The notes under the pieces: model-generated
What the model was told of the DNA's origin: nothing
Database searches by the model: none
What the model saw: the letters and a program-made list of their open reading frames with translations, nothing else
Source of the DNA: Paracoccus stylophorae
Lineage (GTDB): Bacteria > Pseudomonadota > Alphaproteobacteria > Rhodobacterales > Rhodobacteraceae
Assembly: GCF_028553765.1 (NCBI RefSeq)
Contig: NZ_CP067134.1
Location: 1,221,001-1,285,000 of the forward strand
Direction: 5' to 3'
Length of the DNA stretch: 64,000 nt
Made by a program: the position numbers and the translations under genes
Part shown: positions 44,488-63,089 of the stretch, in pieces
Layout: every line of letters begins with the position of its first letter
How positions within the stretch are numbered: position 1 is the first letter of the stretch

Positions 44488-47322
44488 TCAGGCAAAGCGG
44501 CGCGTGGGCGACGGCGGCCGGCCCCTGATCTCCGCCAGAAGCGCATTCAGCAGGCTGGGATCGCTGCAGCAGGCGGCAAGCGTGCCGGGCGTATTCGTCC
44601 TATCTCCTGAACCTGCCCGCAAGGGGAAGGCTTTCTGGCCAAGCGCCGTTTGCACCAGATCCACCCAATCGCACGCGAACGGGGGCAGGTCGCCCGGTTG
44701 ACGGTCATGGCCGAGCGGCCAGATCCGGTGGGTATAGCCGTTTCTGTACTTCGGCAGTGCGACCGGAGCAATCTGAAGGAACCGTGTCACCTTCGGGTCG
44801 TTGCGGCGCATCGCCTCATCTATCTGAGCAGCCGCAGCGATGGACCCGGTGCCGAAGGACAGAAGCGACAGGACCCGGCCCTTTGCCGCCTCGATGCAGA
44901 GGGCGGCGCCCGCTTGCCAGAGTGAACCGCCTGGCCTTGCCGCCGTGTCGGCTTCGGCGGCGAAATCGGCAAGGATCCTGCCGCAGAGCCGCGCGGCACG
45001 ATGTTCAAGATAGGCCGATCCGTCCACTGCCAGCCTGCCGAATCGTTCCGACACCAATGCCGCCTCTGCCCGCATCCGCGCCGCGACGGTAGCGACCTCA
45101 TCGACGCCGTAGGCGATATGCAGGGGGAAGATGCCGTTCTTCAGGAAAACCGGCGTCATGTGGGCGGCGATGCGGGAAATTGCTTCGGCCCCCAGGAAGG
45201 GATCGTGGTGCAGGATGGCAAGTTGCGGACATTCCGGCAGTTCGTTCGCGTTGAGCTCTCCCACCGCCTCGCGCAACGCGCCGAGCCCGAGGCCGAGCCG
45301 CCCGGCCTCGACGATGCCATCACGTTCGGCATGGATCACATGCCCCAGAAGCGCGTGGCGCGGCGCCCGCGGCAGGGCTGCCGTCGCGGCTGGCAGCCCG
45401 TCATCTTTCGCTGCCGCGCCGCTTGCCGGGGTCAGGCCGAAGGCCGAGGGTGAGCTGGGGGCAAGACGGACAATCCAGGCATCGATCAGGTTCTCGGCCC
45501 AGTCGGCATAGCTCCAATGCGCCATGCCGTCCCGGCCGCCCCAGCCGCCCCAGTCCGGCCCCCAGGAATTTTGCACGATGAACCCCGCGGCGTCGTAGCC
45601 GATCACCGCGAATGCATGGGCCCCGATCCGTTCCTGGCTGTGGCGGATGGAATGGATGCGCTTGCCATCGCTGCGTATCCAGCCGGCATGGATATGCGCC
45701 GCCACCGCCACCGCGCCCAGTTCCTGGATCGCGGACTGGAAATCGGCGAGCTGCGGGCGCAGCCGGAAATACGCGCCCGCCGTCACATTGCGGGCGTCGC
45801 GCGCCGCGCGGCGGGTGAACGCCCAGCCCTGCTGGCCCGGCACAAACGGCGCCACATCCGCGCCGCAGACACCGGAATGGAAGAACCCCTTGATTCCCGC
45901 GCGCAGGCTCGTGCCGCCGGCGCCGTCCTCGATCCATTCATCCTGCGCCAGCGCCATCTCGTAGAGCATCCGGGCGCTGACCGGTTTGGCCTCCGGATCG
46001 GTTGCCCGCCGCTGCACGTCGATCAGCGCGGCCAACGCGAAACCGACGCAAGCCGGCTCGGATCTTTGATTATGGATGCGCCGGCGGGGATCGCGGCCGG
46101 GCAGGACGGCGTCGCGAGGCGCGGTCATCGGCGGGGCATAGAACCGGTCGCGGGTGTCGGGACGGTCTGCGACGGCGGCGGCCAGCAGCGCGGGGGGCAG
46201 ATCGGCTGGATCTGTACCGATGAAGGGCGACACGCCTTCATCGTCGGGATCGGCCAGCGCGGGCGACCAGGCCGCCGGCGGCTGCCGCTCGGCCGGGGTG
46301 CGGCTGCCGGACGGCAAGGCATCGTCGATTTCCTCACGCATCCGCGCCTCGGCAAGAAGCAGCGGTATCGGCACGCCGCGATTGGCTTCGTCCGGGTGCT
46401 CGGGGCCGCCGAGGAAAAACTGGCCGCCGCTTGTGTGCAGCGCGACCACATGGCGGGTCAGCAGGTTGAATATCGGCGACCCGGAATTGCCGCCGAGGGT
46501 CGATGCATCATGCGCCATGAGCCTTGCCGCCGCCTCTTGGTGTGTGGTCGGACGTCCCGGACCGGCCATCGCGTCGGGGTTGAGGCATCGGCCGGGACAA
46601 AGCCTCAGGATGCCAAGCTCGCCTTCAAAGACAGAGGCCAACCCGCCCGCGCCGACCAGCGCAGGCGGCACAAAGCCTTGCGCGGCCGGGTAGCCCAGAA
46701 CGGCGACGGGGTCGTCCCGCCCCTGCGCCCGGCCGGGGTCGATTTCCAGCGGCGGGACCTTTTCCGGCGCAAGATCCAGCGGACGGTCAAGCTCGCACAG
46801 CATCGCGTCCCACAGTCCGTGTGGCCAAATCACTGCAGCGATATCGATGCCCTGCGCCGCAGGATCCGGTCGGTCGGCGAAGGTGATGCGGGTCTGGCGC
46901 AGGGCACGGCCATCGCCAGTGCCTACGGCAAGACGGCCAAGCCTGCGTGTCACCGGTCGGCCGGAATTCAGCATGTAGGTCAGCACGTGACCGGCGGTGA
47001 GGATGCGGGCATTGCGCCCGCCGCCGCCGGCGTTCACGACCCAGCCGGTGCCCACCCGCATCCACGCGCCATCCGACTGGCGCACATCTATTCTGCCGAC
47101 GCTTCTGGAATAGGCGGCGGCGATCTGCTGGAGGGCGTCCATATGCTCGCGCAGCCCTGACGGCAGCAGGGGTGGCGGCGGGCCGGGCAGCGCGCGGTTC
47201 GTCAGCGCGATCCCCGGACGCATCAGCCTGACAATCCGGCCAACGCGCGTCAGCCCGCCACCGGAATGCCGGTCACCCCGCATCAGCATGCGAAGATGCG
47301 GAACTATGTCTGAATCCGACAT
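44488..47322 (-). CDS. Double protease: trypsin-like domain plus papain-like (C1) domain
   Basis: 944 residues from the ATG at 47322 (the frame opens at 47364; a GGGGGAT ribosome site favours 47322). Residues about 65-330 are a trypsin-like serine protease with the full triad: H112 (ILTAGHV), D160 (GIDIAAV), S280 (GGNSGSPIF). Residues about 405-620 are a papain-like cysteine protease: C425 (SEPACVGFAL), H569 (GAHAFAVIGY), N585 (VQNSWGPDWGGWGGRDG). The last ~300 residues resemble a degenerate alpha/beta-hydrolase-like region (PVFLKNGIFPLHIAYGVDEVATV). No signal peptide is seen. Divergent from the copper oxidase operon. Role unknown; a stress or defence effector is possible. Confidence 0.85.
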   Translation of the reverse strand: MSDSDIVPHLRMLMRGDRHSGGGLTRVGRIVRLMRPGIALTNRALPGPPPPLLPSGLREHMDALQQIAAAYSRSVGRIDVRQSDGAWMRVGTGWVVNAGGGGRNARILTAGHVLTYMLNSGRPVTRRLGRLAVGTGDGRALRQTRITFADRPDPAAQGIDIAAVIWPHGLWDAMLCELDRPLDLAPEKVPPLEIDPGRAQGRDDPVAVLGYPAAQGFVPPALVGAGGLASVFEGELGILRLCPGRCLNPDAMAGPGRPTTHQEAAARLMAHDASTLGGNSGSPIFNLLTRHVVALHTSGGQFFLGGPEHPDEANRGVPIPLLLAEARMREEIDDALPSGSRTPAERQPPAAWSPALADPDDEGVSPFIGTDPADLPPALLAAAVADRPDTRDRFYAPPMTAPRDAVLPGRDPRRRIHNQRSEPACVGFALAALIDVQRRATDPEAKPVSARMLYEMALAQDEWIEDGAGGTSLRAGIKGFFHSGVCGADVAPFVPGQQGWAFTRRAARDARNVTAGAYFRLRPQLADFQSAIQELGAVAVAAHIHAGWIRSDGKRIHSIRHSQERIGAHAFAVIGYDAAGFIVQNSWGPDWGGWGGRDGMAHWSYADWAENLIDAWIVRLAPSSPSAFGLTPASGAAAKDDGLPAATAALPRAPRHALLGHVIHAERDGIVEAGRLGLGLGALREAVGELNANELPECPQLAILHHDPFLGAEAISRIAAHMTPVFLKNGIFPLHIAYGVDEVATVAARMRAEAALVSERFGRLAVDGSAYLEHRAARLCGRILADFAAEADTAARPGGSLWQAGAALCIEAAKGRVLSLLSFGTGSIAAAAQIDEAMRRNDPKVTRFLQIAPVALPKYRNGYTHRIWPLGHDRQPGDLPPFACDWVDLVQTALGQKAFPLRAGSGDRTNTPGTLAACCSDPSLLNALLAEIRGRPPSPTRRFA

Positions 47323-47482
47323 CGGACCATCCCCCGCCACGGGCGCAGCAATTGCCAGGGCCACATGTCAGGCTATCACCGAATCACTTCTTGTGGCACG
47401 ATCATATTAGCTGAGTGTTGTAAATGGTGCGCCGCCCCTTTTCCGGGTGGTGGCGGAAGTTTGACCCGAAAGGATCTGCGTC
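47323..47482. promoter_or_regulatory. Divergent intergenic region between the double protease and the copper oxidase operon
   Basis: 160 bp separate the two starts, so promoters of both units should lie here. The centre (about 47375-47430) is distinctly AT-richer than its flanks. The copper oxidase start at 47483 is preceded by GAAAGGA. I could not pick out convincing -35/-10 pairs or a known metal-regulator operator. Confidence 0.4.
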
Positions 47483-50400
47483 ATGGCAATTCGTCACCGT
47501 GCGGCTGCGTCGCTTTCGCTGTTCCTGCTGACATGCCCTATCGCCGCATTCGCAGAAGCCGGCCCGGACCCCCGTCCTGACATGGCCGGGATCTGCCGCG
47601 CTGCAGCCGATGAGGGCAGGGTGATCTGTGCGGATATCGGAGCACTTGATCAGACGCTGGTCTACAATCGCTTCGGATCGTTCAACCCGTTCGGCATGAT
47701 CTTTGCGCTGGACCGCGATCTGGCCGTGCTGCGCGAGGACTTGTCGGAGGCGGCAAAGGGGCAGGCGGCCGCGACAAAGCCGCTGCCCGCGGCCGAGATC
47801 AGGACCGCGGCCGACTGCGCGGCCCTGACCGGCTCCGAGCACGGGCATCCCGATACAAAGCTTGCAGCCGGAAACGTGCGGCTGAAGGATTGCAAGCGCC
47901 CGCGCCCCCTGGTGCTTCGCGCGAATGTCGGCGACGTGCTGATCGTGCGCGTGTCGAACTGGCTGTTTGAGCCGGAGGCGCCCGACTTTTCGAAGAACTT
48001 CTGCAAGGCCGCGCTGACGCAGGACAGCAACGCCGAGGCCGTGCGCCCGCATGTCTCGCGCGGGGACAAGGGCGCGCTGCGCCATCACGAGGTCGCCTGC
48101 CTCGCAGCGGACGACGCCGAGACCGAGGCCGGGGACCATGAGCAGACGATCTTCCCTGAACCGACCGACTGGCCCCGCACGCGCGGCGTCAACTTTGTCG
48201 TTCAAGGCCTGACCCCGCTGCCGATCGACGGCGCGATCCATCCGGCCTGCATCGGCACCGGATCGGCGTCGCCCGACGAAAGCTTTCTGTGCAAATACAA
48301 GCTGCACCAGGAGGGGACGTATTTCTTCGCCTCGCAGGCTGCGCCCGCCGGGGGCGAGGGGAATGGCGGGTCGATCGTCCACGGGCTGTTCGGGGCGCTG
48401 ATGGTCGAACGCGCGGGGACGCGCGCCTATCGCAGCCAGACCTCCGCCGCCGCCTTCGACGCGGTCTGGCCCCGCGCGGAAAGCAGTGTCCGTCATGCGC
48501 GGAGCGACATCCTCGACTACGAGCGCGTGCTTGACAACGACGACGCGGCTCTGCGCGCGCCGATCCTCAACATGGCGATGGTCCTTGACGAGCCCGCGCC
48601 GGGCGCGCCGCCGGATCAACGCGCCTTTGCCGATGCGACGCGGCTGGAGATCGTGCATTCCGACCTCAACGCCATCATCTACTGCGACCCCTCCATCGCG
48701 GGCAACGATTGCCGCGCGGAAGCCGTTGACCGGCCCGCCCTGTCGCGCGAACCGGGCTTCAACGCCTTCCGCGAATTCTCGGTCTTCTTCCACGACGAGC
48801 TGAAGACCTTCTACACCCGCAATTTCGAGGAACTGGAGCAGTTCGGCCAGCTTGCCGGAGTGAAGGACGGCTTTGCGATCAATTACGGGGCCTCCGGGAT
48901 GGGCTCGCTCCTCCTTGCCAATCGCAAGGGAATGGGACCGGCCTCGGAATGCGCCGAATGCATGTACGAGGAATTCTTCCTCGCATCCTGGGCCAATGGC
49001 GATCCGGCGCTTCTGGAATGGTATGCGGACGATCCCTCGAACGTGCATCATTCCTACCTGAACGATCCGGTGGTATTCCGGAACTTTCACGCAGGCCCCA
49101 AGGAAACCCATGTCTTCCATCTGCACGCGCATCAGTGGTTCGCGGGAAACGACCCCAGCCGGGGCTCCTATCTGGATAGCCAGACGGTCGCGCCGCAGCA
49201 GGGGTTCACCTACAACATCTATCACGGCGGCCTGCGCGGGCTGGACGGCCCTGAGCGCGGCTGGTGGGATACGCAAGGGTCGGGCAACCGCAACCGCACG
49301 ATCGGCGATTCGATCTTTCACTGCCATCTCTATCCGCATTTCGCGCAGGGGATGTGGGCGCTGTGGCGTGTGCATGACGTGCTGGAGGACGGCACCCGGA
49401 AGCTGCCCGACGGCCAGCCGAATGCGGCACTGTCCACCCGCTTCCCGACCGCCGAGGAACGCGGCCACAGCCGCCCCGGCTCGGTCGACCGGCTGACCGG
49501 CGCCTGGATCGGTCCCAAGGCGGGCGATCCTGACGAAACCGTCGGCACCCCCGTGCCCGCGCTGATCCCGCTGCCGGGGGAGCCGCTGCCGCTGCTGCCG
49601 ACCTATGCCACGGCTGACGATGTGGACGACACCGGCGATACGCCCATCCTCAGGGCCGACGCGAAGACGCCGATGCCGGGCTTTCCCTTCTACATTGCGG
49701 GCCAGCCGGGCCATCGCCCGCCGCAGGCCCCGCTCGACATTGCCCGGGATCTGGGCGAAATCGCCGATGGCTCGATCACCAATGCCGGCACCGACGGCAT
49801 CCTGGCCAAGGTGGATGACCGCGCTATCGGCGAGGGCTGGCTTGATGGCGGTATCGGGCGGCACGTGGTGGCCGACGGGTCGCGGCGGGAACTGGGCTTC
49901 GGCCTGCCCGAGAGGATTTCTGATCTCCTCGAACCCGCCGCCTTCGACGCGCTGACGGAAGAGGAGCGGTCCGCGCTGACCAACCAGATCGTCGCCAAAG
50001 CCTTCGCGCTTGGCGACCTGTCCGCCCATCTGACCGAAGCCAGGATCGAGACCTTGCCGAATGACGGCACGCGGCTTGAACGCGGGGCGATGGGCTTTCA
50101 CTTCGACGGCCGGCTCTATCGGGCCGAAGGCCTGAATCCGGGGCTTCGGCTGACCGATGCGGCAGGGACCGATCTTGCCGATGCACCGGTCAACGGGCTT
50201 TATCCCACCGCCCATGCGCCGCTGCCCGACGGATCGCCCGCGCCCAACCCGAAGAATTCCTGGCCGGTGAACGGCAATCCGCCCAAACCGGGCGCCCCCT
50301 TCGCCGATCCGTGCGGCGCCACCGCGCCCGAGACCCGCGCCGCCGTGACACCCGGGGTGGACCCGTTCATGCGCACGGCCGACGGGGACACGGACTACTT

Positions 50401-53400
50401 CCACGACCCGTTTCTTCTGGGCTTCCGCCGCTATGAGGTGTCGGCCGTGCAGCTCGACATGATCGTGAACCGCGCGGGCTGGCATGACCCGCAGGCGCGC
50501 ATCAATGTTCTGACCGCCGAATCCGACCGGTTCAAGGAGGCGGCAGGGGTTGCGCCGAAGCCGATCTCGCCCACCATCAGCGACACGGAAGAGCCGTTCT
50601 TCTTCCGCGCCCTGTCCGGGGAATGCATCGAGTTCCGGCATACGAACGAATTGCCGAAGGATCTGCAGCTGGACGATTTCCAGGTGAAGACGCCGACGGA
50701 TACGGTTGGCCAGCATATCCATCTGGTGAAGTTCGACGTGACATCGTCGGACGGGTCCGGCAACGGCTGGAATTACGAGGACGGCACCTTTGCCGCCGAC
50801 GAGCTTGCCGCGCGCCGCTGCGCCTCTGCCGGAAACGTGACGCCGCGGGAGGATGCTGCAGGGATCACCCTCGACGCCGGCGAATGTGAGGGTCCGGACC
50901 CCGCGCTCCACGACATCTGGCGGTTGAGCCGCAGTGAGAACCGCAACCGGTTCCAGACGACCGTCCAGCGCTGGTTCGCCGATCCGATCCTGACAATGAA
51001 CGGCGATCCCGACGATCCGCAGCTGCGGGACCGGACGCTTCGCACCGTATTCACCCACGATCATTTCGGCCCGTCCTCGATCCAGCAGCACGGGTTCTAC
51101 TCGGCCCTCGTCATCGAGCCGGGGGTCGGCGTGCCGCCGGGTCCGGTGCAGCTGCCCGATGCCAGCGGCGATGTCGGTGCCGAGGCCGAGCTTGCCTCGA
51201 TCTGCACGCCCGACGGCGCGAGTTGCGTGGGGCCGGTTCCCGCGGCCGACCGTCTGTCCGCCGTCGCCTGGGGCGGCGAGGTCTGGGACGGGACCAAGCG
51301 GCGGGTGCGGATGCAGGGCGACAATCCCACCCATCCCGACTATCGCGAATTCGCCCTGTCGATCGCCGACTTCGCGCTGCTTTACGATCCGCGCGACCGC
51401 ACCAGCGCGGCGGAATTGAAGGCCACGGCCGGACTTGGCCCGGACGGTATCGCGGGGCCGGAAGATCCGCCCTTCGCCGATCCCTTCGGCATGGGCCAGA
51501 TCTATTGCGAGGCGAAGTGGCGGCTGAGCCCCTATATCCTCAACCGGAAATGCGGGGTGGCAGCGACCAAGGAGTTCGCCGCCGATTTCGACGATCTGGA
51601 CAGCGACTCCTGGTTCTTGTCAGGCGATCTTGCACCGGCCTGGATTGCGGGCGGCACCAATCGTGACGATGCCCACAAGGCGCGGTTCAGGGGCGACATC
51701 TTCGCCGAACCGACCCCGACGGCGGCCGAGGTCGAGACGCTTTTCGACCATCTCGTCTCCTACCGGCAGCGCGCGGCGGGCATCCTGACCCCGCCCGCAG
51801 ACCCTGCCACGGCGACGCTTGCCAGGCCCGTCGCCCCACCGCGCCGTCCCGAGTCGATCTCGGTCGATCACCACGACCCCTATCTGGTGAACTATCGCGG
51901 CGCGCCGATCCCGCTTCGGGTGGGCGACAAGGTCGCCGGTGCCGCGCCGTCCAGCGATTGCCGCCTGCGCGCGATGGGCGTGGCGGGCGACCACGCCGCG
52001 GAATCCAGCGAGGTGGCCGCGACGCTGGCCGATGGCGCGTTCGGTGAATGTTCGGTCGACACCCAGATGACAGGCGCGCAGGGCGATATGGGCGGGGCGC
52101 TGCGATCGGCCCTGCACGGCGATCCCGAAACGCCGATCCTCGAAGCCTATCAGGACGAACGGCTGGTGATCCGCCTCATCCAGGGCGCGCAGGAGGTGCA
52201 GCATACGTTCAACGTCGCGGGCCTCGCCTTCCGCCGCAATATCGACCAGGCCTTCCCCGCGGGCAAACAGCCGCTCGGCCTTTCGGACGAACGGCGGGCC
52301 ACCCCGTCCCTGCGCGACGACTGCCTTGGCAATGCGGCACCTCTGGGCCCGCCGGTGCCTGCCGCACTGGACGGGCGTCCCGACACATATCGGGCATGGC
52401 GCGACACCGCCGAGGAACACGGCGCGCATTCGCAGTTCTGGCAGGACTATGAAAAGGTCATCGCCGGATGCGACAACGTGGAAGGCATCACCTTCGCGCA
52501 GGAGATCGGCATCTCGGAACATTTCGAGATGAACGGATCGCTGCGCGCCGACATTCCCGTCAGCATCGAGACGGCGGGAGGGTTCTTGGCCGAGGCGCCA
52601 TCGGATGACGTGCCGGAGAGATCGTCGGATTATCTTTACAATTTCGGCTCGGTCGATGCGCTTTGGAACGGGGCCTGGGGGCTGATGCGGATCTACCGCG
52701 ATCCCTCCGCCCCCGACCCGGCCACTGTCGCGGTGTTCAACACCGGCAATGCCGACGCGCCGGAGCTGACAGCGGCGGGCCGGCCCATCGGCGAACGGCT
52801 TGGCGAATCCGGATCGCGGTCGGAATCCGTGGACGGGCAATCCATGCCCGTCGGCACCGGCGGCCTCGCCTGCCCCTATCCGGGCGAGGGCGAACCGCCG
52901 CAACGGGTTATCGACGCCGTGCTTGCCGCCGTCGAGACGCGGACCGTCTGGCCAGCAGCCAAGGGCACCGATTACGGCGCGGGGCGCTATGACCCCGACG
53001 GGTTGATGCTGGCGCTGCTGTCCCCGGCCGATCTGGGGATTGCGGGCGGCATCGGGTCCGCCGAAGGATGGGACGGCGTGACGCGCCGGACTGTCGCGGA
53101 TGCCGTCGCATTTCGCTACCGCCACGGGCCGCGTCCGATGACGCTGCGCGTCCGGGCGGGCGATTGCGTGCGGCTGCGCTACGTCAACGCGCTGACGGAC
53201 AGCGATGGCGGTCTCAGCGACAGGCTTGGCGATGCGACGATGCCGCCGATCGTGCCACTGAATGCCGATCCGTTTCCGCATGCGCCGGAACATGGCGGCA
53301 GCAAGGGCGGGCTGCAGCCGGTCGGGCCGGACATGCGCCCCGGCGGCGTCCGTCCGTCGGATCAGGTCGCGCTCAGTGTCGGGCTGCCCGGCATGGACCT

Positions 53401-54784
53401 TATCCGCGACCTGCCGCTTGCCTATGGCTACGGCGCGCCCGGCCTGGCCGCCGCGTCGGGCGAAGGGGTCAGCGTCAGCCGCCCCTACCTGTTCTACGCC
53501 GGCCGGATGCGGCTGGACCTGCCGGGCGAGGCGGGACTGCTTGACCTGCGCGCGGAGATTGCCGCCCGCGTGGCCCAGCACCTGGCCGATCTCGCTCCCG
53601 CTTGGCTGTCGGAGGGGACGGACAGTTTCCCGACGGCGGGCGAGACCGATTTTCTTGTCCCGGTCGAATTGCAGTCTGACGGCGATGCGGTTTTTTCGGT
53701 TCTCGGCCAAAGCTATGGCTTCATGCTGTCGCCGGCGGCACCCTCGGGTCCGCTGTCGCAGCGGCTCTGGGATGCCGAACCCCTGATCGACGGATCGCCC
53801 GACGGTCTTGACGAATTGGTCGCGGCGGTCTGCGACGGGGCGGAATGCCTGGACCGGGACGCCGTCCGGGCGCAACTGATGGAGGCCGCGCGCCGCGCCG
53901 CGCTGGAGGAGCTGGACGCTCGCGTCCACTGGATTCCCTATGCCTTCGGCCCGGTTCCCATCCGCTCGACGTCGGATGTCGTCAGCCATGTCCAGCACGG
54001 GCTGTTTGGCGCGATCGACGTGGTGCCGCGCACCTGGAACCCGGTCGGCGTGATGGGCCAGCAGATGGCGTGCGAGGTCGTTGACCGCTATGAGATCTGC
54101 GCGGCCCACCATGCCGAGGGCGCCGATCCCGGCCCGGGCGACGGCGGCACGATGCTGTTCGATGCCCAAGGCCCCGATGGCCGGGTCGAACGGACGCGCG
54201 AATTCGTTCTTTACTATCAGGACGGGCTGAATCTCTGGGACGACGGATCGCGCATCTCCTGGGAATGGGAGGATAGCGGCAATGCCGTGACCGAGGACGA
54301 CGGAACGCCGGTCAGCATGGTGCCTGACTGCATCGTCTGCGACGACAGCTATGATCGGGGCGAGAAGGGCGTGAACTATCGCTCGCCGTCCTTCTCGCAG
54401 GTGCTGTCCGAACCCGCGGTGCGGATCGAGGAAAGCGATGACCTCAATGCCTTCGTCTTCCCGCCCGACTATCTTGCCGCCCATCCAAACGCGCTGCGCC
54501 TGAAGGCCTGCGAGGGCGAGCAGATCGTTGTCAGGGTCGTGCATCCCGGCGGGCGGGCACGGCAGCGGGCCTTCGTGATGAACGGCTACAACTACGACGA
54601 CCTGTTCCCCGGCTTCGGCTTCCCCCGCTCGGTCCTGCTGGCACCGGGCAAGGGGATGACCGCGTGGCTGACGCCCAAGGCGGTGCCGGGCACGGCGATC
54701 TGGCATGACGGGCCGACCCATATCCGCGCAGGCGGCGTCTGGGGTCTGCTGGAGGTGGCGGAGGCGGAGAAATGCGGCGACTGA
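47483..54784 (+). CDS. Giant multicopper oxidase-like protein
   Basis: 2433 residues with a signal peptide (MAIRHRAAASLSLFLLTCPIAAFA), so periplasmic or exported. A complete multicopper set sits early: THVFHLHAHQW (H543, H546, H548, H550) and FHCHLYPHFAQGMW (H613, C614, H615, H619, M624), giving type 1 ligands H543, C614, H619, M624 and half of a trinuclear site. The other half may come from HIH (H1078, H1080) and THDHFGPSSIQQHG (H1192, H1194, H1203). Usual first-domain motifs near 240 and 280 lack their histidines (FVVQG, GTYFFASQ), and the C-terminal motif is degenerate (WHDGPTH, H2408, H2413, no Cys). Several cupredoxin domains must be present. The layout recalls MnxG/McoA manganese oxidases; substrate unproven. 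Confidence 0.85.
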   Translation: MAIRHRAAASLSLFLLTCPIAAFAEAGPDPRPDMAGICRAAADEGRVICADIGALDQTLVYNRFGSFNPFGMIFALDRDLAVLREDLSEAAKGQAAATKPLPAAEIRTAADCAALTGSEHGHPDTKLAAGNVRLKDCKRPRPLVLRANVGDVLIVRVSNWLFEPEAPDFSKNFCKAALTQDSNAEAVRPHVSRGDKGALRHHEVACLAADDAETEAGDHEQTIFPEPTDWPRTRGVNFVVQGLTPLPIDGAIHPACIGTGSASPDESFLCKYKLHQEGTYFFASQAAPAGGEGNGGSIVHGLFGALMVERAGTRAYRSQTSAAAFDAVWPRAESSVRHARSDILDYERVLDNDDAALRAPILNMAMVLDEPAPGAPPDQRAFADATRLEIVHSDLNAIIYCDPSIAGNDCRAEAVDRPALSREPGFNAFREFSVFFHDELKTFYTRNFEELEQFGQLAGVKDGFAINYGASGMGSLLLANRKGMGPASECAECMYEEFFLASWANGDPALLEWYADDPSNVHHSYLNDPVVFRNFHAGPKETHVFHLHAHQWFAGNDPSRGSYLDSQTVAPQQGFTYNIYHGGLRGLDGPERGWWDTQGSGNRNRTIGDSIFHCHLYPHFAQGMWALWRVHDVLEDGTRKLPDGQPNAALSTRFPTAEERGHSRPGSVDRLTGAWIGPKAGDPDETVGTPVPALIPLPGEPLPLLPTYATADDVDDTGDTPILRADAKTPMPGFPFYIAGQPGHRPPQAPLDIARDLGEIADGSITNAGTDGILAKVDDRAIGEGWLDGGIGRHVVADGSRRELGFGLPERISDLLEPAAFDALTEEERSALTNQIVAKAFALGDLSAHLTEARIETLPNDGTRLERGAMGFHFDGRLYRAEGLNPGLRLTDAAGTDLADAPVNGLYPTAHAPLPDGSPAPNPKNSWPVNGNPPKPGAPFADPCGATAPETRAAVTPGVDPFMRTADGDTDYFHDPFLLGFRRYEVSAVQLDMIVNRAGWHDPQARINVLTAESDRFKEAAGVAPKPISPTISDTEEPFFFRALSGECIEFRHTNELPKDLQLDDFQVKTPTDTVGQHIHLVKFDVTSSDGSGNGWNYEDGTFAADELAARRCASAGNVTPREDAAGITLDAGECEGPDPALHDIWRLSRSENRNRFQTTVQRWFADPILTMNGDPDDPQLRDRTLRTVFTHDHFGPSSIQQHGFYSALVIEPGVGVPPGPVQLPDASGDVGAEAELASICTPDGASCVGPVPAADRLSAVAWGGEVWDGTKRRVRMQGDNPTHPDYREFALSIADFALLYDPRDRTSAAELKATAGLGPDGIAGPEDPPFADPFGMGQIYCEAKWRLSPYILNRKCGVAATKEFAADFDDLDSDSWFLSGDLAPAWIAGGTNRDDAHKARFRGDIFAEPTPTAAEVETLFDHLVSYRQRAAGILTPPADPATATLARPVAPPRRPESISVDHHDPYLVNYRGAPIPLRVGDKVAGAAPSSDCRLRAMGVAGDHAAESSEVAATLADGAFGECSVDTQMTGAQGDMGGALRSALHGDPETPILEAYQDERLVIRLIQGAQEVQHTFNVAGLAFRRNIDQAFPAGKQPLGLSDERRATPSLRDDCLGNAAPLGPPVPAALDGRPDTYRAWRDTAEEHGAHSQFWQDYEKVIAGCDNVEGITFAQEIGISEHFEMNGSLRADIPVSIETAGGFLAEAPSDDVPERSSDYLYNFGSVDALWNGAWGLMRIYRDPSAPDPATVAVFNTGNADAPELTAAGRPIGERLGESGSRSESVDGQSMPVGTGGLACPYPGEGEPPQRVIDAVLAAVETRTVWPAAKGTDYGAGRYDPDGLMLALLSPADLGIAGGIGSAEGWDGVTRRTVADAVAFRYRHGPRPMTLRVRAGDCVRLRYVNALTDSDGGLSDRLGDATMPPIVPLNADPFPHAPEHGGSKGGLQPVGPDMRPGGVRPSDQVALSVGLPGMDLIRDLPLAYGYGAPGLAAASGEGVSVSRPYLFYAGRMRLDLPGEAGLLDLRAEIAARVAQHLADLAPAWLSEGTDSFPTAGETDFLVPVELQSDGDAVFSVLGQSYGFMLSPAAPSGPLSQRLWDAEPLIDGSPDGLDELVAAVCDGAECLDRDAVRAQLMEAARRAALEELDARVHWIPYAFGPVPIRSTSDVVSHVQHGLFGAIDVVPRTWNPVGVMGQQMACEVVDRYEICAAHHAEGADPGPGDGGTMLFDAQGPDGRVERTREFVLYYQDGLNLWDDGSRISWEWEDSGNAVTEDDGTPVSMVPDCIVCDDSYDRGEKGVNYRSPSFSQVLSEPAVRIEESDDLNAFVFPPDYLAAHPNALRLKACEGEQIVVRVVHPGGRARQRAFVMNGYNYDDLFPGFGFPRSVLLAPGKGMTAWLTPKAVPGTAIWHDGPTHIRAGGVWGLLEVAEAEKCGD

Positions 54785-56538
54785 TCTGCGCCTTCGTTGC
54801 AATGCTCGCCACGCCCGCGATGGCCGAGGATCTGCAACCCGCCCTGTCCGGGATCGTAAGCTTCACCACCTTGGACGGCGCGCCGCTGGAGCGGCCGGTG
54901 CCCGGCGAGCCCTTCGATGTGACGGTGACGATCCAGAACCGTCTTGGCGCCGATCCGCCCGCCGGGCTGCAACTGGCCGGCTGGCTGCGGCCGGTGGAGG
55001 ACGACAATATTTCGTGCACCGAGGCCGCGCGCAGTTTTCTTGCCACCGGTCGGCTGCCGCGCGGCGCGCTGAAACTGAACGGCGTCCTGATCGCCACCGC
55101 CTCCGAGGACGGCGCATTCACCATTGCTGATCCCGAGATCGATCTTGCCAGCGCGAACCTTCTGGGTGCGGCGCGCTTGGCCGAACCGCCGGCAAGCCTG
55201 ACCGCCGATGTCGAGGGGCGGCGACTCCTTGCCACGCTGGCAGACCGGGGAGAGGTGCTGTCGATCGCCGTTCCGACCGCCGTCGCAACGGTGCTGGCCG
55301 ATGGCCTTGACCGCCCGACCGTCGCCTATCCCGCAGCCCGCGGGTCGGTATGGGCGCTGGAGGCAGGGCGCCACCGCCTGACGCATATTGCACCCGATGG
55401 ACGGCGACATGTTGCGGCCGTGGGCGTCGATCGGCTGGAGATGGCCCCAGAGGGCGACAGGCTGGCGGTGTCCGGGCCGGGCGGCGCCGCGCTGCGCGAT
55501 GCGGTAACCGGAAAGTTGCAGATCAGCACGGACGACCCGGCCGATCACGCCATTCCTCTTGCCGACCCAAAGGGAACCTTTGGGCTCGCTGCATTATCCG
55601 GGCAGGGCGTCGAGATCCGTTACACGGATGCCCCCGAACTTGCCGTGGCCGTAAGCCTTCCCGCTCCTGCTACGCGTCTTGCTGCCGGGCTGGGGGGACG
55701 GTGGATTCTCGCTTATGATGCCTCTGGCCAGGCGCCCGTCGCGTTGATCGATGTGGCCCGCGCGCGCGTGGTCCAGACCATCGCGACGCCGGGCGCGGTT
55801 TCCGAAATCGCCTTCACCGATCGCGCCGCCTATCTGATGACCGCCGACCAGTCGCGGGTCGGCGTGCTCGACCTCGCGGCGATCCGTCCGGAACGCGCCG
55901 CAGCGCTGCGCGAGGTGATGCTGGGGCAGGCGCGTGCCGTGCCGCTTGACCACGCGGGCTACCTCGCTCCTCTCTGGCCGCAGCCGGGCATGATCGCGGT
56001 TCATGCCGAAAGCTTCACCGGTTTCGTCATTCACGATTACAGCACGATGGGCGATGCACCGCCGATGAGCGCGATCCGCCTGCGCGGCGGGGTGCCGCAC
56101 CGTGTCGCCGGGTTCGACCGCAGCTTTCGCGAGGTGGAACCGGGCGTTTTCCGCACCACCGCGATGCTGCCCGGACCAGGATTGTTCGAGCTTGTGACCA
56201 CCACCGGCATCGGCGCGCTGTCTTTCTGCGCGCCCCTTGCGCCGACAGAGGGGATTGTGGCGACTGCCGCGCCGGGGCGGCTTTTGGCGGAACCGATCGA
56301 TGCACGGCACGTGCGCCTGACATTTCGGGGCGGCGATGGCGCGCCCGTCGGCGATGTGGTCTTCAGCGTTCTGGTGAGCGGCCTTGCGACACCTTGGCGG
56401 GATGCCGTCACGCTTCGGTCAGATGCGGCGGGGCAGGCTCTGGACCTTCTGGCGCTTCCCGCCGGCGGACCTGTCGTGATCGCCGCACGCGGCCGCGACG
56501 GGCATCTTTTTCATCCCCTGGTGCTGGAGCGGCCATGA
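54772..56538 (+). CDS. Exported beta-propeller protein (YVTN/YncE-like)
   Basis: 588 residues. Signal peptide MRRLICAFVAMLATPAMA. A short N-terminal beta domain (FDVTVTIQNRLG..., about 20-110) precedes repeated blades of the kind SVWALEAGRHRLTHIAPDGRRHVAAVG, ALIDVARARVVQTIATPGAVSEIAF and VGVLDLAAIRPERAAALREVMLGQ. The last ~120 residues form another beta module. I see no heme motif. The start lies 13 bases inside the copper oxidase gene and its stop overlaps the SCO gene, so it is made in step with both. It may act as a scaffold or carry an unrecognised cofactor. Confidence 0.82.
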   Translation: MRRLICAFVAMLATPAMAEDLQPALSGIVSFTTLDGAPLERPVPGEPFDVTVTIQNRLGADPPAGLQLAGWLRPVEDDNISCTEAARSFLATGRLPRGALKLNGVLIATASEDGAFTIADPEIDLASANLLGAARLAEPPASLTADVEGRRLLATLADRGEVLSIAVPTAVATVLADGLDRPTVAYPAARGSVWALEAGRHRLTHIAPDGRRHVAAVGVDRLEMAPEGDRLAVSGPGGAALRDAVTGKLQISTDDPADHAIPLADPKGTFGLAALSGQGVEIRYTDAPELAVAVSLPAPATRLAAGLGGRWILAYDASGQAPVALIDVARARVVQTIATPGAVSEIAFTDRAAYLMTADQSRVGVLDLAAIRPERAAALREVMLGQARAVPLDHAGYLAPLWPQPGMIAVHAESFTGFVIHDYSTMGDAPPMSAIRLRGGVPHRVAGFDRSFREVEPGVFRTTAMLPGPGLFELVTTTGIGALSFCAPLAPTEGIVATAAPGRLLAEPIDARHVRLTFRGGDGAPVGDVVFSVLVSGLATPWRDAVTLRSDAAGQALDLLALPAGGPVVIAARGRDGHLFHPLVLERP

Positions 56539-57098
56539 CACGATATCTTGCCCTGTTTCTTGCCTGTCTCGCCGGGCCGTGCCTTGGCGATGAAGTCAGC
56601 GATGCGCCGATCGAAACGCTGATGCCCCCCGATCTTCCCGTCACCGATGCCGCCGGGCACAGCGACGGGTTCGTGACGCGCCTCCGGCATCGCGGGCCTG
56701 TGATCGTCAGCTTCTTCTATACCGGCTGCGTGTCGCTCTGCGATGTCACGAACGGCATCCTCTACGGCGTCGACCAGACGCTTCTGGAAGACGGCGGGGA
56801 ACCCGTCACTCTCGTCAGTTTCAGCATCGACCCGTTCAACGATTCCCCCGCAGCGCTCCGCGAGTCGGCGGCGAACTTCACGCCCAGCGACAACTGGCTT
56901 TGGCTTACCGCAGGGCTGCGGGGGACGCAGCCGCTGATGGACGGAATGGGAGTCACCTTCGAGAGCATTCAGACGCATGACGCGATGTTCCTTGTCGGCG
57001 ATTTCTGTTCGTTCCGCTTCGCCCGGATCGTCGGCCTGCCGGAGCCTGAGCAGCTGATCGCACTTGCCAGGAACGTGCCCGAATGCGGTTCTGGCTGA
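56535..57098 (+). CDS. SCO1/SenC family copper chaperone
   Basis: 187 residues with a signal peptide (RYLALFLACLAGPCLG). Thioredoxin fold with the SCO copper-binding motif: C65 and C69 in FFYTGCVSLCD and H148 in IQTHDAMFLVGD; VTLVSFSIDPFNDSP is also typical. SCO proteins deliver copper to, or reduce thiols of, copper enzymes such as cytochrome oxidase. Here, fused by overlapping ends to a multicopper oxidase operon, it most likely metallates that oxidase. The start ATG at 56535 overlaps the stop of the propeller gene by 4 bases. The long upstream frame is a shadow. Confidence 0.92.
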   Translation: MTRYLALFLACLAGPCLGDEVSDAPIETLMPPDLPVTDAAGHSDGFVTRLRHRGPVIVSFFYTGCVSLCDVTNGILYGVDQTLLEDGGEPVTLVSFSIDPFNDSPAALRESAANFTPSDNWLWLTAGLRGTQPLMDGMGVTFESIQTHDAMFLVGDFCSFRFARIVGLPEPEQLIALARNVPECGSG

Positions 57099-58105
57099 TC
57101 GCGCTTCTGCTCATCCCGATGCCTGCACGGTCCGAAACACCGGGAGCTGCCCTGTTCCTGCGGGGAGAGGGTGCAGAAGTCGCCATCAACGCCACGATCG
57201 ATATGCCTGCGACGCGGTTCTCCTGTGCCGGCTGCCACGGAGCCGATGGCGCGGGACGGGCCGAGGGCGGGACCGTGTTTCCCCCGATCAGGTGGTCGGC
57301 CCTGGACGTCGCGGGCTACGACGAGCAGGCTTTCATCCGCGCGTTGACCGAAGGGATTACACCGGACGATCGCACGCTGTCGCGCTCCATGCCACGTTTC
57401 AAGGCGGACAGACAGCTTCTCGCCGCGCTGGCAGATCATCTCAGGACGCTCGACGCCCTCGGCGGGATAACGGCAACCGAGATCGGCGTAAGGCCAAGCG
57501 GGGATGCGGCGCTGGACGCCGGCTTCATCGCGGCCATTGCAAGGGTTAACGAAGATGGCGGCGCCTTCGGTCGGAAGCTGGTGGTGACGGAGGAGGAGAA
57601 TGCCGGACTGGACCTCGTCGCCTTTGCCCGCAATCAGTGGGCAAAGATGGAAACTGCATGTCTTGCCGCCGCGATTGCTGCGATCCGCGACGACGGACAC
57701 CGGACCTTGTCGATCAGCGGGGTCGCAAACGATGATGTTGTCTACCGCGTCCGCGCCGCCGGGCTGAAGATCGATCCTGCCGCACAGGCGGTGCTTCACA
57801 TCGGGACAGAGGACCACGTGGCGCCTATGCGCCGGTCGCATTTCGGCTGCATCGATCAACTTGGCCCGCTTGCGGCCAGCCTGGTTCAGGACGGAGGCCA
57901 CGTGACGCTGGTTGTTCCCGACCGGCAAGCCCTTGTTTGGGCGGTTTCGTCGCGGCGCTCCGGGCAGGAGATGCGCGGCTATGTGCTTGGCAGCATGATC
58001 GGCCGCGCCGCGCTGACTGCCGGGCGGGACCTCACACTCGCCACCTTGACCGAAGCCGCGCAAAATCTGACAATTTCGACGGAACTGGTGCGGTTGTCTC
58101 GATGA
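57083..58105 (+). CDS. Cytochrome c fused to a periplasmic-binding-protein-like domain
   Basis: 340 residues with a signal peptide (MRFWLIALLLIPMPARS). Residues about 20-125 are a class I monoheme cytochrome c: heme motif C48-A-G-C51-H52 and a probable distal ligand M103 (RSMPRF). From about 130 the sequence changes to IGVRPSGDAALDAGFIAAIARVNEDGGAFGRKLVVTEEEN, the opening of type 1 (branched-chain amino acid/AmiC-like) binding proteins, but only ~210 residues remain instead of the usual 340 or more. The start overlaps the SCO gene by 16 bases. It is the obvious electron acceptor for the operon's oxidase; the binding-protein part may sense or hold a ligand. Confidence 0.83.
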   Translation: MRFWLIALLLIPMPARSETPGAALFLRGEGAEVAINATIDMPATRFSCAGCHGADGAGRAEGGTVFPPIRWSALDVAGYDEQAFIRALTEGITPDDRTLSRSMPRFKADRQLLAALADHLRTLDALGGITATEIGVRPSGDAALDAGFIAAIARVNEDGGAFGRKLVVTEEENAGLDLVAFARNQWAKMETACLAAAIAAIRDDGHRTLSISGVANDDVVYRVRAAGLKIDPAAQAVLHIGTEDHVAPMRRSHFGCIDQLGPLAASLVQDGGHVTLVVPDRQALVWAVSSRRSGQEMRGYVLGSMIGRAALTAGRDLTLATLTEAAQNLTISTELVRLSR

Positions 58106-58448
58106 AGAAGTCACTCGCCACCACTGGAGGCAGTCTGTCGTCTTGGCACGTATCTTTGGTTCACCGGCTAGACGTCAAAGAATCGCGTGCGTCCTGCGGT
58201 CATGCCTGGTTGATCAGCAGTGGATTACCCGAAGGGGGCGCGAACCGGGACGGGGAAAGCGAGGAGGATGGCGAAAGCTAGACGCAGGGCGGACTTGCGC
58301 CTGGCTGTCTACACGAGGTCGCGGCCGGCATCGTGGTGCGCTTGAATGGTCATATTTCCAGGTGACGCGGTCGCCGCCCCGGTGCACACTGCGCCGTGGC
58401 GGGATGGTGCAGAACACATGACCGCCAGGGGAAAAGGGAGGATATCCG
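58106..58448 (+). other. 343-bp gap between the copper oxidase operon and choX
   Basis: No gene seen; a possible 59-codon frame directly after the cytochrome stop has no family likeness. No T-run hairpin was found. The choX promoter should lie in the second half; its ribosome site (AAGGGAGG at 58433-58441) is clear but the promoter is not. Confidence 0.4.
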
Positions 58449-59390
58449 ATGATGGGCTTTCCCGCGGCCGCGCTGTCGGCCACGCTGGTTCTTTTCTGCG
58501 CGACGCAGGCATTTGCCGACGATCCTTCCGCGTGCAGGACGCTTCGCATGTCCGATCCGGGCTGGACCGATATCAACGTGACCAATGCGCTTGCAAAGAC
58601 GGTGTTCGATGCGCTTGGCTATGACACCGAGATCGCGACCCTGTCGGTGCCGATCGGCTATGAGGCGCTGAAAAGCGGGCAGAGCGATGTGTTCCTGGGC
58701 AACTGGATGCCGGCGCAGACGTCGTTCCGCGAGGATCTGGACAAGGCGGATGCGGTAGAGGTGCTGGGCCGCAATCTGGACGGCGCGAAGTTCACCCTTG
58801 CCGTCACGAGGGCGGGCAGGGATCTGGGCGTCGCCGATTTCGCCGATCTGGACGCTCACAAGGACGCATTCGGGGGCAAGATCTATGGGATCGAGCCGGG
58901 TGCGCCGGCGAACCAGACGATCGGCAACATGATCGCAGCCGACAAGTTCGGCCTCGGCGACTGGGAACTGGTCGAGACCGGCGAACAGGCGATGCTGGCG
59001 CAGGCGGCGCGCAATCAGGCCGCCGGCACGCCCATGGTGTTCCTTGCCTGGGCGCCGCATCCGATGAACGAAAGCCTCGACATCACCTATCTCACCGGCG
59101 GCGATGCCGAGTTCGGACCCGATTACGGCGGCGCCGAGGTCTTCACGCTGGCCCGGACCGGCTGGCCGGAACAATGCCCGAATGCGGCGAGGCTGCTGAA
59201 GCAGATGACCTTCACCGTGCCGATGGAAAACCGGATCATGGGCGCGATCCTGGATGACGGGCAGTCGCCCGAGGACGCCGCGCAGGCCTGGCTGAAGGCA
59301 AACCCCAACGTGCTGGGGCCGTGGCTGGACGGCGTGACCACGCTGGACGGGCAGCCCGGCCTTGCCGCGGTGCAGGCCGCGCTGAAGTGA
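58449..59390 (+). CDS. choX: Choline ABC transporter substrate-binding protein
   Basis: 313 residues. Signal peptide to about residue 23 (ATLVLFCATQAFA), then SACRTLRMSDPGWTDINVTNALAKTVFDALGYD and FLGNWMPAQTSF, typical of the ChoX/ProX family, whose aromatic box (tryptophans in DPGWTD, GNWMP and AWAPHPM) cages the trimethylammonium group. The two other genes of the usual choXWV set are missing; instead betC follows with a 1-base overlap. It may serve a transporter encoded elsewhere, or the locus has lost choW and choV. Confidence 0.92.
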   Translation: MMGFPAAALSATLVLFCATQAFADDPSACRTLRMSDPGWTDINVTNALAKTVFDALGYDTEIATLSVPIGYEALKSGQSDVFLGNWMPAQTSFREDLDKADAVEVLGRNLDGAKFTLAVTRAGRDLGVADFADLDAHKDAFGGKIYGIEPGAPANQTIGNMIAADKFGLGDWELVETGEQAMLAQAARNQAAGTPMVFLAWAPHPMNESLDITYLTGGDAEFGPDYGGAEVFTLARTGWPEQCPNAARLLKQMTFTVPMENRIMGAILDDGQSPEDAAQAWLKANPNVLGPWLDGVTTLDGQPGLAAVQAALK

Positions 59391-61096: not shown

Positions 61097-61133
61097 GCCC
61101 GTCGACCTCTCATGAGGTTGCCGGGCTTTTTTT
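61097..61133 (+). terminator. Intrinsic terminator
   Basis: Stem GCCCG-T-CG-ACCTC, loop TCAT, GAGGT-TG-C-CGGGC: 13 positions with one G-T wobble and one mismatch, followed directly by seven T (61127-61133). A textbook rho-independent terminator on the plus strand. It lies beyond betC and the ICMT fragment and before the AmiC-like fragment, so it presumably ended a transcript now partly deleted. Confidence 0.85.
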
Positions 61134-61159
61134 GCTGGAATGTGCTTGGGGAGGGCGCT

Positions 61160-61462
61160 TTGCACAAGGTCGATGTCGGACTGGTCCTTTCAACCACTGG
61201 TCCCTATGGCGCGCTTGGACGCAATGCGCTGGCAGGGGCGCAGATGGCGATTAACGACCTCGGCGCCGAAAAGGGCGTTCAGATCAACGCACATCACGTC
61301 GACCCGCAGGGCCGCCCCGAGCTCTATCGCAGCATGACCGCCGACCTCCTGGCCAGGCGCGACGTCCGGCATCTGGTCGGCGGCATCACCTCGTGGAGCC
61401 GCAAGGACATGATCCCCGTCCTCGAACGCTATGGAGCTTTGCTGTGGTATCCTTGCCGGTAA
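61160..61462 (+). pseudogene. AmiC/FmdD-like amide-binding protein, truncated by IS3 insertion
   Basis: About 100 residues: HKVDVGLVLSTTGPYGALGRNALAGAQMAINDLG, then VGGITSWSRKDMIPVLERYGALLWYPC, which match the N-terminal lobe of AmiC (negative regulator of amidase) and the FmdD/UrtA type of amide- or urea-binding proteins. The stop (TAA, 61460-61462) belongs to the insertion sequence. I start it at the TTG at 61160, which has GGGGAGGG before it; the ATG at 61112 lies inside the terminator hairpin. Without a signal peptide it would have been a cytosolic sensor like AmiC. The remaining two thirds are absent from this window. Confidence 0.7.
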
Positions 61463-61527
61463 TCCCCCCTGATTTTAAGGGGATGCGGAAGTAGAATTTT
61501 CTCGGCAGGATGAACGAGGAGATTCCG

Positions 61528-61791
61528 ATGAAGAAGACACGATTCACAGAAGCCCAGATCATGGGTGTGCTGCGCCAGATGGAGGGCGGTGTGCCTGCCG
61601 CTGAGCTGTGCCGCGAGCATGGGATGAGCAGCGCCACGCTGTACAAGTGGCGGGCGAAGTATGGCGGCATGGACGCCAGTCTGATCAGCGAGATGAAGGC
61701 AATGACCGAGGAGAACCGGCGGCTGAAGCGGATGTTTGCAGATGTGAGCATGCAGAATGATCTTCTGAAGGAGGCCCTCGGAAAAAAATGA
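61528..61791 (+). CDS. IS3-family transposase OrfA
   Basis: 87 residues from the ATG at 61528 (GAGGAG 7 bases upstream; the frame opens at 61510). Helix-turn-helix: [44 protein letters not shown], followed by a leucine-zipper-like tail ([24 protein letters not shown]). Closest in style to the IS407 group. It binds the element ends. The last codons lie in a run of seven A, where a -1 shift would fuse it to OrfB. Confidence 0.93.
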
Positions 61792-62615
61792 ACCGGCCAG
61801 CTCAACGCCGAGAGTTGGCCGTGAAAGCGGTGGCGATAAAGGGTATCAGCATTGCTCTGGCCTGCCGGGCATTCGACGTCAGTGAGACATGCTACCGGTA
61901 CAGCCCGAAATTGGACGAGGAGAACGAGCAGATCGACGACCTGCTGCTCGGTCTGACGATGGCAAAGAAGACTTGGGGCTTTGGCCTGTGCTTTCTGTAT
62001 CTGCGCAACGTCCAGGGCCATGGCTGGAACCATAAACGGGTGTACAGGATCTACCGGGAACTGGAGCTGAACCTGCGGATCAAGCCACGCAAGCGCCTGA
62101 AACGGGAGAAGCCCGAGGAGTTGGCCGTGCCCGAGGCCCCGAACGAGGTCTGGTCGATGGACTTCATGGCCGACAGACTGGAGGATGGACGACAATTCCG
62201 GCTGTTGAACGTTCTGGACGACTTCAACCGTGAAGGACTGGGCATTGAGATCGACTTCTCACTGCCTGCGGAACGGGTTGTTCGGGCATTGAACCAGATT
62301 ATTGAATGGCGCGGCGCACCTCGAACCATTCGAGTCGATAACGGCCCGGAATACCTCAGTGGCACCCTCACGGAATGGGCTGAGAACAGGGGCATTACCC
62401 TGGCCTATATCCAATCCGGCAAGCCCCAGCAGAACGCCTATGTCGAGCGCTACAACCGGACGGTCAGGCACGAATGGCTGGACTTGTACATTTTCGAAGG
62501 CATTGAAGAGGTACAGCAGATTGCTACCGAGTGGCTCTGGTCCTACAACAACGAACGCCCCAACATGGGCAACGGCGGGATGACCCCCGCCCAGAAACTG
62601 AGAGTCGCCGCGTAG
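61788..62615 (+). CDS. IS3-family transposase OrfB (integrase catalytic subunit)
   Basis: 275 residues overlapping OrfA by 4 bases in the -1 frame. An HTH_21-like segment ([32 protein letters not shown]) precedes the rve DDE core: D in [14 protein letters not shown] in [13 protein letters not shown], and E in [19 protein letters not shown], 35 residues later as expected. The C-terminus [18 protein letters not shown] is standard. Intact, so the element could still be active. Confidence 0.95.
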
Positions 62616-62652
62616 ATTCTACGACCAAGCCCCCGCAAAAATGGGGGGATTA

Positions 62653-63029
62653 CCGGCCTGGATGTCCCGGACCGTCAGCCCGGCGGCGTAGAGCCCGATA
62701 ATCTTGTCGTCCATCCCGTCGATCCGGGTCTGGCCCTTCTTCACCAGCTCGGGCTCGAAGCTGCTGTCGCGGTCGCGGGGCACAGCCACCGGCATCTCGC
62801 CATCCTGTCCCTTCAGCACCTTGGGCGAGGCGCCATTCCGGCGGTTGGCCTGACCCAGCGGCGCATCCTTGCCTTCTTCGTAGCCAAGATGCGCCGTCAG
62901 TTCGGCACCCAGCATCCGCTCCATGAGCTTGATCTTGAGCTCTTTCATCAGCCCGGCCTCGCCAAGCAGGTCTTCAGGGCGCTCAACCCCCTTCAGAAGT
63001 TCGTCCAGCAGTTCCTTGGAGATTGTCAT
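62653..63029 (-). pseudogene. IS256-family transposase, N-terminal fragment
   Basis: About 125 residues: MTISKELLDELLKGVERPEDLLGEAGLMKELKIKLMERML, then HLGYEEGKDAPLGQANRRNG and IDGMDDKIIGLYAAGLTVRDIQ, matching the start of the ~400-residue mutator-type transposases. The sequence breaks off at the IS3 end after DIQA; the frame continues a few codons into IS3 DNA to a stop at 62619. All catalytic DDE residues are lost, so it is inactive. Confidence 0.88.
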
Positions 63030-63089
63030 GCATGCTTCCTTTTGATGAAGCATGGCCCGGATCAATCATACACAGAAGATCTGACACTC
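62653..63089 (-). mobile_element. Remnant of an IS256-family element
   Basis: Only one end survives. The outer end (63089 inward, minus strand) reads GAGTGTCAGATCTTCTGTGT, typical for an IS256 terminal repeat. The rest of the transposase and the other end are missing, replaced by the IS3 element and the AmiC-like sequence. The IS3 element therefore probably inserted here and a deletion, or recombination between IS copies, removed the remainder. Confidence 0.75.

Follow-up and report, generated by a model that had tools for sequence, protein, structure and literature searches.

A predicted mnxG-type operon with an enlarged multicopper oxidase in Paracoccus stylophorae and related Alphaproteobacteria

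Known manganese oxidase operons and the Paracoccus locus

The Mnx complex of Bacillus and MnxG of Pseudomonas putida are reported to oxidize Mn (PMC5622069, PMC11930936), and Bacillus MnxG is described as requiring a complex with MnxE and MnxF (PMC5622069). The mnxG operon of P. putida GB-1 is tabulated as mnxG with genes for a YVTN beta-propeller protein, two SCO1 proteins, a substrate-binding protein with a cytochrome c domain, and SurA (PMC11409713). Here we analyzed a window of 64,000 nucleotides from Paracoccus stylophorae (contig NZ_CP067134.1, positions 1,221,001 to 1,285,000), in which positions 47483-58105 on the + strand hold a four-gene locus that, judged from homology and gene content, is almost certainly an operon of the mnxG kind. 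A sequence-only reading had recognized four genes with overlapping ends, and the listing of open reading frames (ORFs) confirmed them, with overlaps of 13, 4, and 16 bases between successive genes:

47483..54784, + strand: MnxG-type multicopper oxidase (MCO), long form (2433 aa; matches to NF041487 and to 9bxa MnxG)
54772..56538, + strand: probably exported beta-propeller-like protein (588 aa; fold named through homologues alone)
56535..57098, + strand: SCO1/SenC-type copper chaperone (187 aa; PF02630)
57083..58105, + strand: mono-heme cytochrome c fused to a shortened periplasmic-binding-protein-like part (340 aa)

All four genes lie on one strand in the order of the pseudomonad mnxG operon (MCO, propeller, SCO, cytochrome c/binding protein), as compared with the published GB-1 table. 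The window has one SCO gene where GB-1 has two, a gene for an OpuAC protein comes next in place of surA, the binding-protein part is shortened relative to the pseudomonad operon, and the oxidase has 2433 aa against the 1894 positions of the NF041487 model. In gene content, the operon corresponds to that of pseudomonads without its second SCO gene and surA. The sequence-only reading had known of no reported system made up of just these four components, a claim that falls because the P. putida mnxG operon contains all of them. On the sequence evidence, what is new here is that this pseudomonad set of operon genes occurs in a divergent alphaproteobacterial clade of long-form oxidases, mainly from Paracoccaceae, in which the oxidase is enlarged.

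Three further systems resemble the locus in part. MnxG of Bacillus sp. PL-12 (PDB 9bxa) is homologous to the window oxidase across both halves of the latter, but has 1227 aa compared with 2433. The mof operon of Leptothrix is given as mofA, mofB (a peptidyl-prolyl isomerase, PPIase), and mofC (cytochrome c) (PMC8218464); it shares with the window operon a cytochrome gene alongside one for a large putative Mn oxidase, whereas the window operon is without a PPIase. Two loci of Leptothrix discophora CCM 2812 (L032 and L039) encode relatives of the window oxidase and are candidates for MofA when compared by description. Neither a PPIase nor a cytochrome was found among the 10 ORFs scanned at L039. 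In the mcoA operon of P. putida, an MCO gene is followed by one for SCO1/SenC, and neither a propeller nor a cytochrome fusion is tabulated; of the five mcoA operon genes in GB-1, only mcoA and the SCO gene are listed as kept in two other strains (PMC11409713). The likeness to the window, again by description, is the SCO1/SenC gene after the MCO gene.

The oxidase is a distant relative of MnxG

The Pfam search with the oxidase gave no match above cut-off. Its best NCBIfam match was MnxG (NF041487; 1.2e-141, 473.4 bits), and its sole matching chain among PDB sequences was the MnxG of 9bxa (5e-62). Profiles built from the two halves of the protein both matched this chain (2.6e-120 for residues 25-1224 and 1.1e-138 for residues 1225-2424); two-domain laccases and further small oxidases matched far less well. 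AlphaFold models of the same halves had pLDDT 80.3 and pTM 0.90 (residues 25-1224), and pLDDT 81.8 and pTM 0.88 (residues 1225-2424). The top Foldseek match for both was again 9bxa (7.8e-32 and 1.5e-24, respectively). TM-scores were modest (0.40 and 0.34, by query length) and rmsd values large (8.1 and 10.5), which is partly due to comparing half of the protein with an entire chain. By these sequence matches, the protein is assigned to a distant branch of MnxG and is not an equivalog.

The sub-threshold matches to Cu-oxidase_3 and Cu-oxidase_2 would suit an ordinary laccase or copper-resistance oxidase (CopA/CueO) with chance neighbors, but the CopA model TIGR01480 gave 7.9 bits against a cut-off of 478.95, the MnxG match extends across both halves, and the gene set is conserved. 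Moreover, the genome holds three other Cu-oxidase_2 matches, one of them with an internal stop. We consider this explanation to have next to no probability, and an ordinary laccase or CopA was rejected on the Pfam and NCBIfam scores. The profile comparison that the sequence-only reading had proposed thus aligned the MCO to MnxG and not to CopA.

Copper ligands are complete and invariant

A scan of genome contigs with the oxidase found relatives in 141 stretches; the analysis covered the best 80, which comprise 79 loci. Four copper motifs were located in the window oxidase, and follow each other along the chain in the order C, D, A, B:

49109..49138, + strand: copper motif C (residues 543-552; H543, H546, H548)
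49316..49354, + strand: copper motif D (residues 612-624; H613, C614, H615, H619, M624)
50708..50734, + strand: copper motif A (residues 1076-1084; H1078, H1080)
51050..51094, + strand: copper motif B (residues 1190-1204; H1192, H1194)

The motif letters and site roles are those that we take to apply from multicopper oxidases in general, with H543 as a presumed type 1 ligand and H546 and H548 as presumed trinuclear ligands. All twelve ligands were invariant in the 71 aligned oxidases (71/71), rows that had been drawn by similarity to the window oxidase, and were also kept in 6/6 added oxidases, five of them belonging to the pseudomonad-like family and the sixth to genome G102. Much of the sequence around the four motifs was likewise invariant among relatives, and the motifs seen in the printed alignment with 9bxa agreed with the window oxidase. 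In that alignment H619 falls on position 340 of the chain, where 9bxa has alanine. This entry bears the title 'Structure of Mnx H340A complex', and histidine is therefore the wild-type residue.

The oxidase is thus predicted to have the full set of type 1 and trinuclear ligands, including eight trinuclear histidines. Because the histidine set of the trinuclear site is complete, the oxidase itself is predicted to reduce O2 and to need no other acceptor. The sequence-only reading had electrons passed on to the cytochrome, a step that this prediction makes unnecessary.

The gene set is conserved in distant groups

At least 5.5 kb of downstream sequence was available for 64 of the 79 loci, and all four parts were found within 9 kb in 51 of these 64. 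The partners were downstream on the same strand in 48 of the 51. Among the 13 incomplete loci, five had no partners (L023, L024, L034, L070, L080), five had the propeller as sole partner (L031, L035, L043, L059, L062), two had propeller and SCO but not the cytochrome fusion (L036, L038), and one had SCO alone (L049). Even with shorter flanks, 4/15 loci (L007, L014, L018, L051) showed all four parts. The partner profiles had been iterated on the same loci, which makes them sensitive but not independent. Since the gene set recurs in 51/64 relatives, the grouping of four predicted genes is not due to chance, and the neighborhood survey proposed in the sequence-only reading bore out their co-occurrence. 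The set occurs in Alphaproteobacteria, Nitrospira, Myxococcota, and Acidobacteriota.

The gene arrangement varied in some loci. At L032 (4328-14626) and L046, from Leptothrix/Sphaerotilus, the oxidase is divergent from a cluster of propeller, SCO, and cytochrome-binding-protein genes. At L018 (9980-17266) and L067 the oxidase is broken into two or three frames, which reflects either gene decay or misassembly.

No genome in the phylum sample (0/398) had an oxidase above the MnxG cut-off, and three had any match, the genome studied here included. For a more independent check on the gene set, pseudomonad-like genomes were sampled around a center genome, G023, obtained by a search with the marker OprF. 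None of the 56 genomes of its genus exceeded the cut-off; in its family, whose members we infer to be pseudomonads, 55/348 genomes did. Eight of the 56 matching genomes in this family were examined, chosen for a + strand gene on a large contig. Six of the seven loci above the cut-off carried homologous genes for the propeller, two SCO proteins, and the cytochrome-binding-protein fusion, downstream and on one strand, matching the printed content of the GB-1 mnxG operon. The locus below the cut-off (L128) had one of each partner, the propeller being found by profile only. Among three loci inspected by eye, a SurA/PpiC-like ORF followed the operon in L124 and L131 but not in L127. Downstream of the operon, these three loci also had frames that by eye resemble response regulators and GspE (an ATPase of secretion or pili); none adjoins the window operon.

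Partner proteins

The N-termini of all four proteins resemble signal peptides as read by eye. The propeller protein had no Pfam or NCBIfam match of its own, and was named through its homologues, which match YNCE and YVTN models. Two of its cysteines are conserved, C82 in 63/63 and C486 in 62/63 sequences, counts that exclude three fragments shorter than 430 aa.

The SCO protein cleared PF02630 with 36.7 bits against a cut-off of 22.8. Its length of 187 aa is counted from the ATG at 56535; the ORF listing has a longer form from a TTG at 56394. The SCO1/SenC signature consists of CxxxC plus a distal His, and the corresponding C65, C69, and H148 were invariant in 57/57 sequences, the window protein included; these are 57 of 68, as 11 frames longer than 260 aa were dropped. 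At nine Myxococcota loci (L037, L045, L050, L052, L053, L055, L060, L061, L079) the SCO frame spans ~370 residues, of which ~320 are covered by matches, and apparently joins two SCO units.

The cytochrome c domain narrowly cleared PF00034 (22.3 vs 21.3 bits), and its C48, C51, and H52 (CxxCH) and M103 were invariant in 56/56 sequences. The binding-protein-like part stayed below threshold in the window (Peripla_BP_6, 16.2 bits vs 31.7), whereas the match was clear in homologues (1.4e-38 in L040 and 7.6e-23 in L033). The fusion has 340 aa in the window and 258-453 aa in the long-form clade, compared with 471-621 aa in 25/27 relatives outside Alphaproteobacteria; starts were chosen by script, and L014, cut by a contig end, was set aside. 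Overall, these matches upheld the sequence-only reading in that the oxidase is related to MnxG, is probably exported, and is accompanied by an SCO copper chaperone of its own and by a c-type cytochrome. The propeller and the binding-protein-like part stood on weaker ground, through the lack of an own family match and the sub-threshold score, respectively.

A cytochrome with invariant CxxCH and Met that is kept beside the oxidase in 51/64 loci might point to an energy-conserving chain of metal oxidation, in which electrons from the substrate reach the cytochrome fusion, via the oxidase or directly, and then pass to a terminal oxidase. However, the trinuclear O2 site is complete and invariant, so that no other acceptor is needed, and a simple electron shuttle would have no use for a binding-protein-like part. 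Such a chain therefore seems improbable.

Phylogeny, size, and distribution of the oxidase

In a FastTree phylogeny of the 71 oxidases, with SH-like support and no bootstrap, the window oxidase fell within a clade of 24 long alphaproteobacterial forms, mostly from Paracoccaceae (support 100). Its closest relative among the 80 best stretches was L003, from an uncultured Sedimentitalea, with 90% over core columns. The clade adjoins three shorter Nitrospira forms, followed by Leptothrix/Sphaerotilus, and other alphaproteobacterial rows lie outside it (e.g., L035, L043, L071, L076, L077). When pseudomonad MnxG was added in a second tree, the pseudomonad rows grouped with L071, away from the window oxidase. 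The deepest forks were weak, with support of 55-90 across both trees.

Counted from the first start codon, the long forms had 1996-2543 residues, compared with 1556-1837 in ten of the eleven short forms; the start of the eleventh (L065) is doubtful. Relative to the short forms, 802 residues of the window oxidase lie in 26 insertions of at least 12 residues. These insertions, the largest being 1309-1430, 2014-2141, and 1589-1663, were filled in 40-97% of the 24 long forms. A single extra catalytic module as the cause of the length is not favored, the extra residues being spread over 26 insertions.

The ~800 inserted residues, the separate clade with SH-like support of 100, and a score far under the MnxG cut-off would all suit an oxidase of the same operon kind and chemistry that has a different main substrate (a phenolic compound, Fe(II), or Cu(I), for example) and oxidizes Mn(II) little or not at all. 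However, there is no variation in the copper ligands or across much of the sequence surrounding the four copper motifs, and the operon partners are those of mnxG. A different substrate is therefore rather unlikely, at about one chance in several.

The distribution of the oxidase is patchy. Within the genus it was found in 17/101 genomes, the one studied here included, with two partial or weak matches (G436, G458), and within the family in 7/295 genomes, again including its own, at E 1e-50 or better. Cultured carriers of the operon include P. halophilus and P. lutimaris. Plasmid records gave 30 matches, eight of them from Paracoccus; among the 13 best, 12 were annotated as hypothetical protein and one record had no annotation. 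None of the titles among the literature matches listed concerned such an operon in Paracoccus or its relatives, in a search whose coverage leaves out most subscription papers. Three isolate genomes, one of them Paracoccus, are reported to have no gene annotated as mnxG (PMC4861733), and mnxG is reported in six bacterial metagenome-assembled genomes in a context where Alphaproteobacteria are named among the dominant ones (PMC10367259).

Genomic surroundings

Upstream of the operon, a gene at 44488-47364 on the - strand runs in the opposite orientation and has a trypsin-like domain; downstream, the + strand gene at 58449-59390 encodes an OpuAC, glycine-betaine-type binding protein. Given these flanking genes, the operon most likely ends with the cytochrome gene. 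The upstream gene encodes 958 residues, with a middle part that looks like a papain-type protease by eye, and starts ~120 bases away from the oxidase start.

A GAAAGGA stretch was read by eye upstream of the first ATG. A sigma-54 promoter has been predicted for mnxG and mcoA of P. putida (PMC11930936). In the window, a crude sigma-54 scan run without a shuffle control gave a match at -142 with 2 mismatches of 10; matches in relatives were at other positions. Generic scans of 47300-58500 returned 2 promoter-like sites, compared with 1.1 (sd 1.1) in shuffled sequences, and 4 terminator-like sites, compared with 5.9 (sd 2.7).

Antisense to the oxidase, two long frames are open on the - strand (47402-51334, 1310 codons; 51620-54802, 1060 codons), and at L032 a frame of 1631 codons is antisense to its oxidase. 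These are probably an effect of codon use at high G+C. At 61112-63065, the start of a Peripla_BP_5 protein (116 residues) stops just before a pair of IS3-like frames (61510-62615), after which comes a fragment of a Mutator-family transposase (62619-63065, - strand); this looks like an insertion into a transport gene. Downstream of the insertion sequences and mostly past the window end, L109 (G000:C1:1283000-1300000) is an apparent metal-handling cluster. It has two SCO proteins (PF02630), and its other members were named by eye as a cation diffusion transporter, a MerR-type regulator, DsbB, DsbA, a PCuAC-like copper chaperone, a ZIP-like permease, and a CadA-like P-type ATPase.

Proposed function

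We propose that this alphaproteobacterial mnxG-type operon probably encodes an exported, O2-reducing metal oxidase that is loaded with copper by SCO and acts most likely on Mn(II). As to the main substrate, we lean towards Mn(II), because the experimentally studied relatives, Bacillus Mnx and P. putida MnxG, oxidize Mn. All four proteins would be exported, and the SCO protein would deliver copper to the oxidase. At its type 1 copper, the oxidase would then accept single electrons from Mn(II) (and Mn(III)), and these would cross the His-Cys-His link to the trinuclear site; O2 would be reduced to water, and Mn(III/IV) oxide would be left behind. For the propeller, a role in assembly or docking is most likely. 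The cytochrome fusion, for its part, most likely either feeds in electrons or draws them off during copper loading or turnover. Cytochrome-maturation genes are cited as playing a role in Mn oxidation by P. putida MnB1 (PMC11409713), which fits a role in maturation or in electron transfer alike.

Several observations speak against this proposal. The 473.4 bits of the oxidase fall short of the 3100-bit equivalog cut-off of NF041487, and the trees place it closer to Leptothrix/Sphaerotilus and the short Nitrospira forms than to pseudomonad MnxG. MnxE and MnxF, which Bacillus MnxG requires, were not found in the operon, whose overlapping genes offer no space for them, or in its flanks (protease, OpuAC), a genome-wide search not having been made. 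One pseudomonad-like locus above the cut-off, L126, has none of the partners within 17 kb, so the partners are not strictly needed for having the enzyme. We found no activity data on members of the long-form clade in the literature. Furthermore, Sphaerotilus is described as understood to be non-Mn-oxidizing though its genomes carry such oxidases (PMC13386937), and several nitrifier families are reported to carry MnxG-like genes without shown Mn oxidation (PMC11995701).

A more speculative and, in our view, quite unlikely idea is that the long-form clade is functionally distinct, the enlarged oxidase and a cytochrome with a shortened, perhaps no longer ligand-binding part together forming an electron-conserving exported system of metal oxidation. 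If so, heterotrophic relatives of Paracoccus would be able to draw on Mn(II), or on some other metal, as a lithotrophic supplement. For mnxG-type systems in general, the presence of the gene set across distant groups suggests that the propeller, the SCO protein, and the cytochrome with its binding protein are probably parts of the working machine rather than local neighbors. The hypothetical proteins on plasmids of Paracoccus and other bacteria become candidates for Mn oxidases that can be tested directly, and cultured species are among their hosts.

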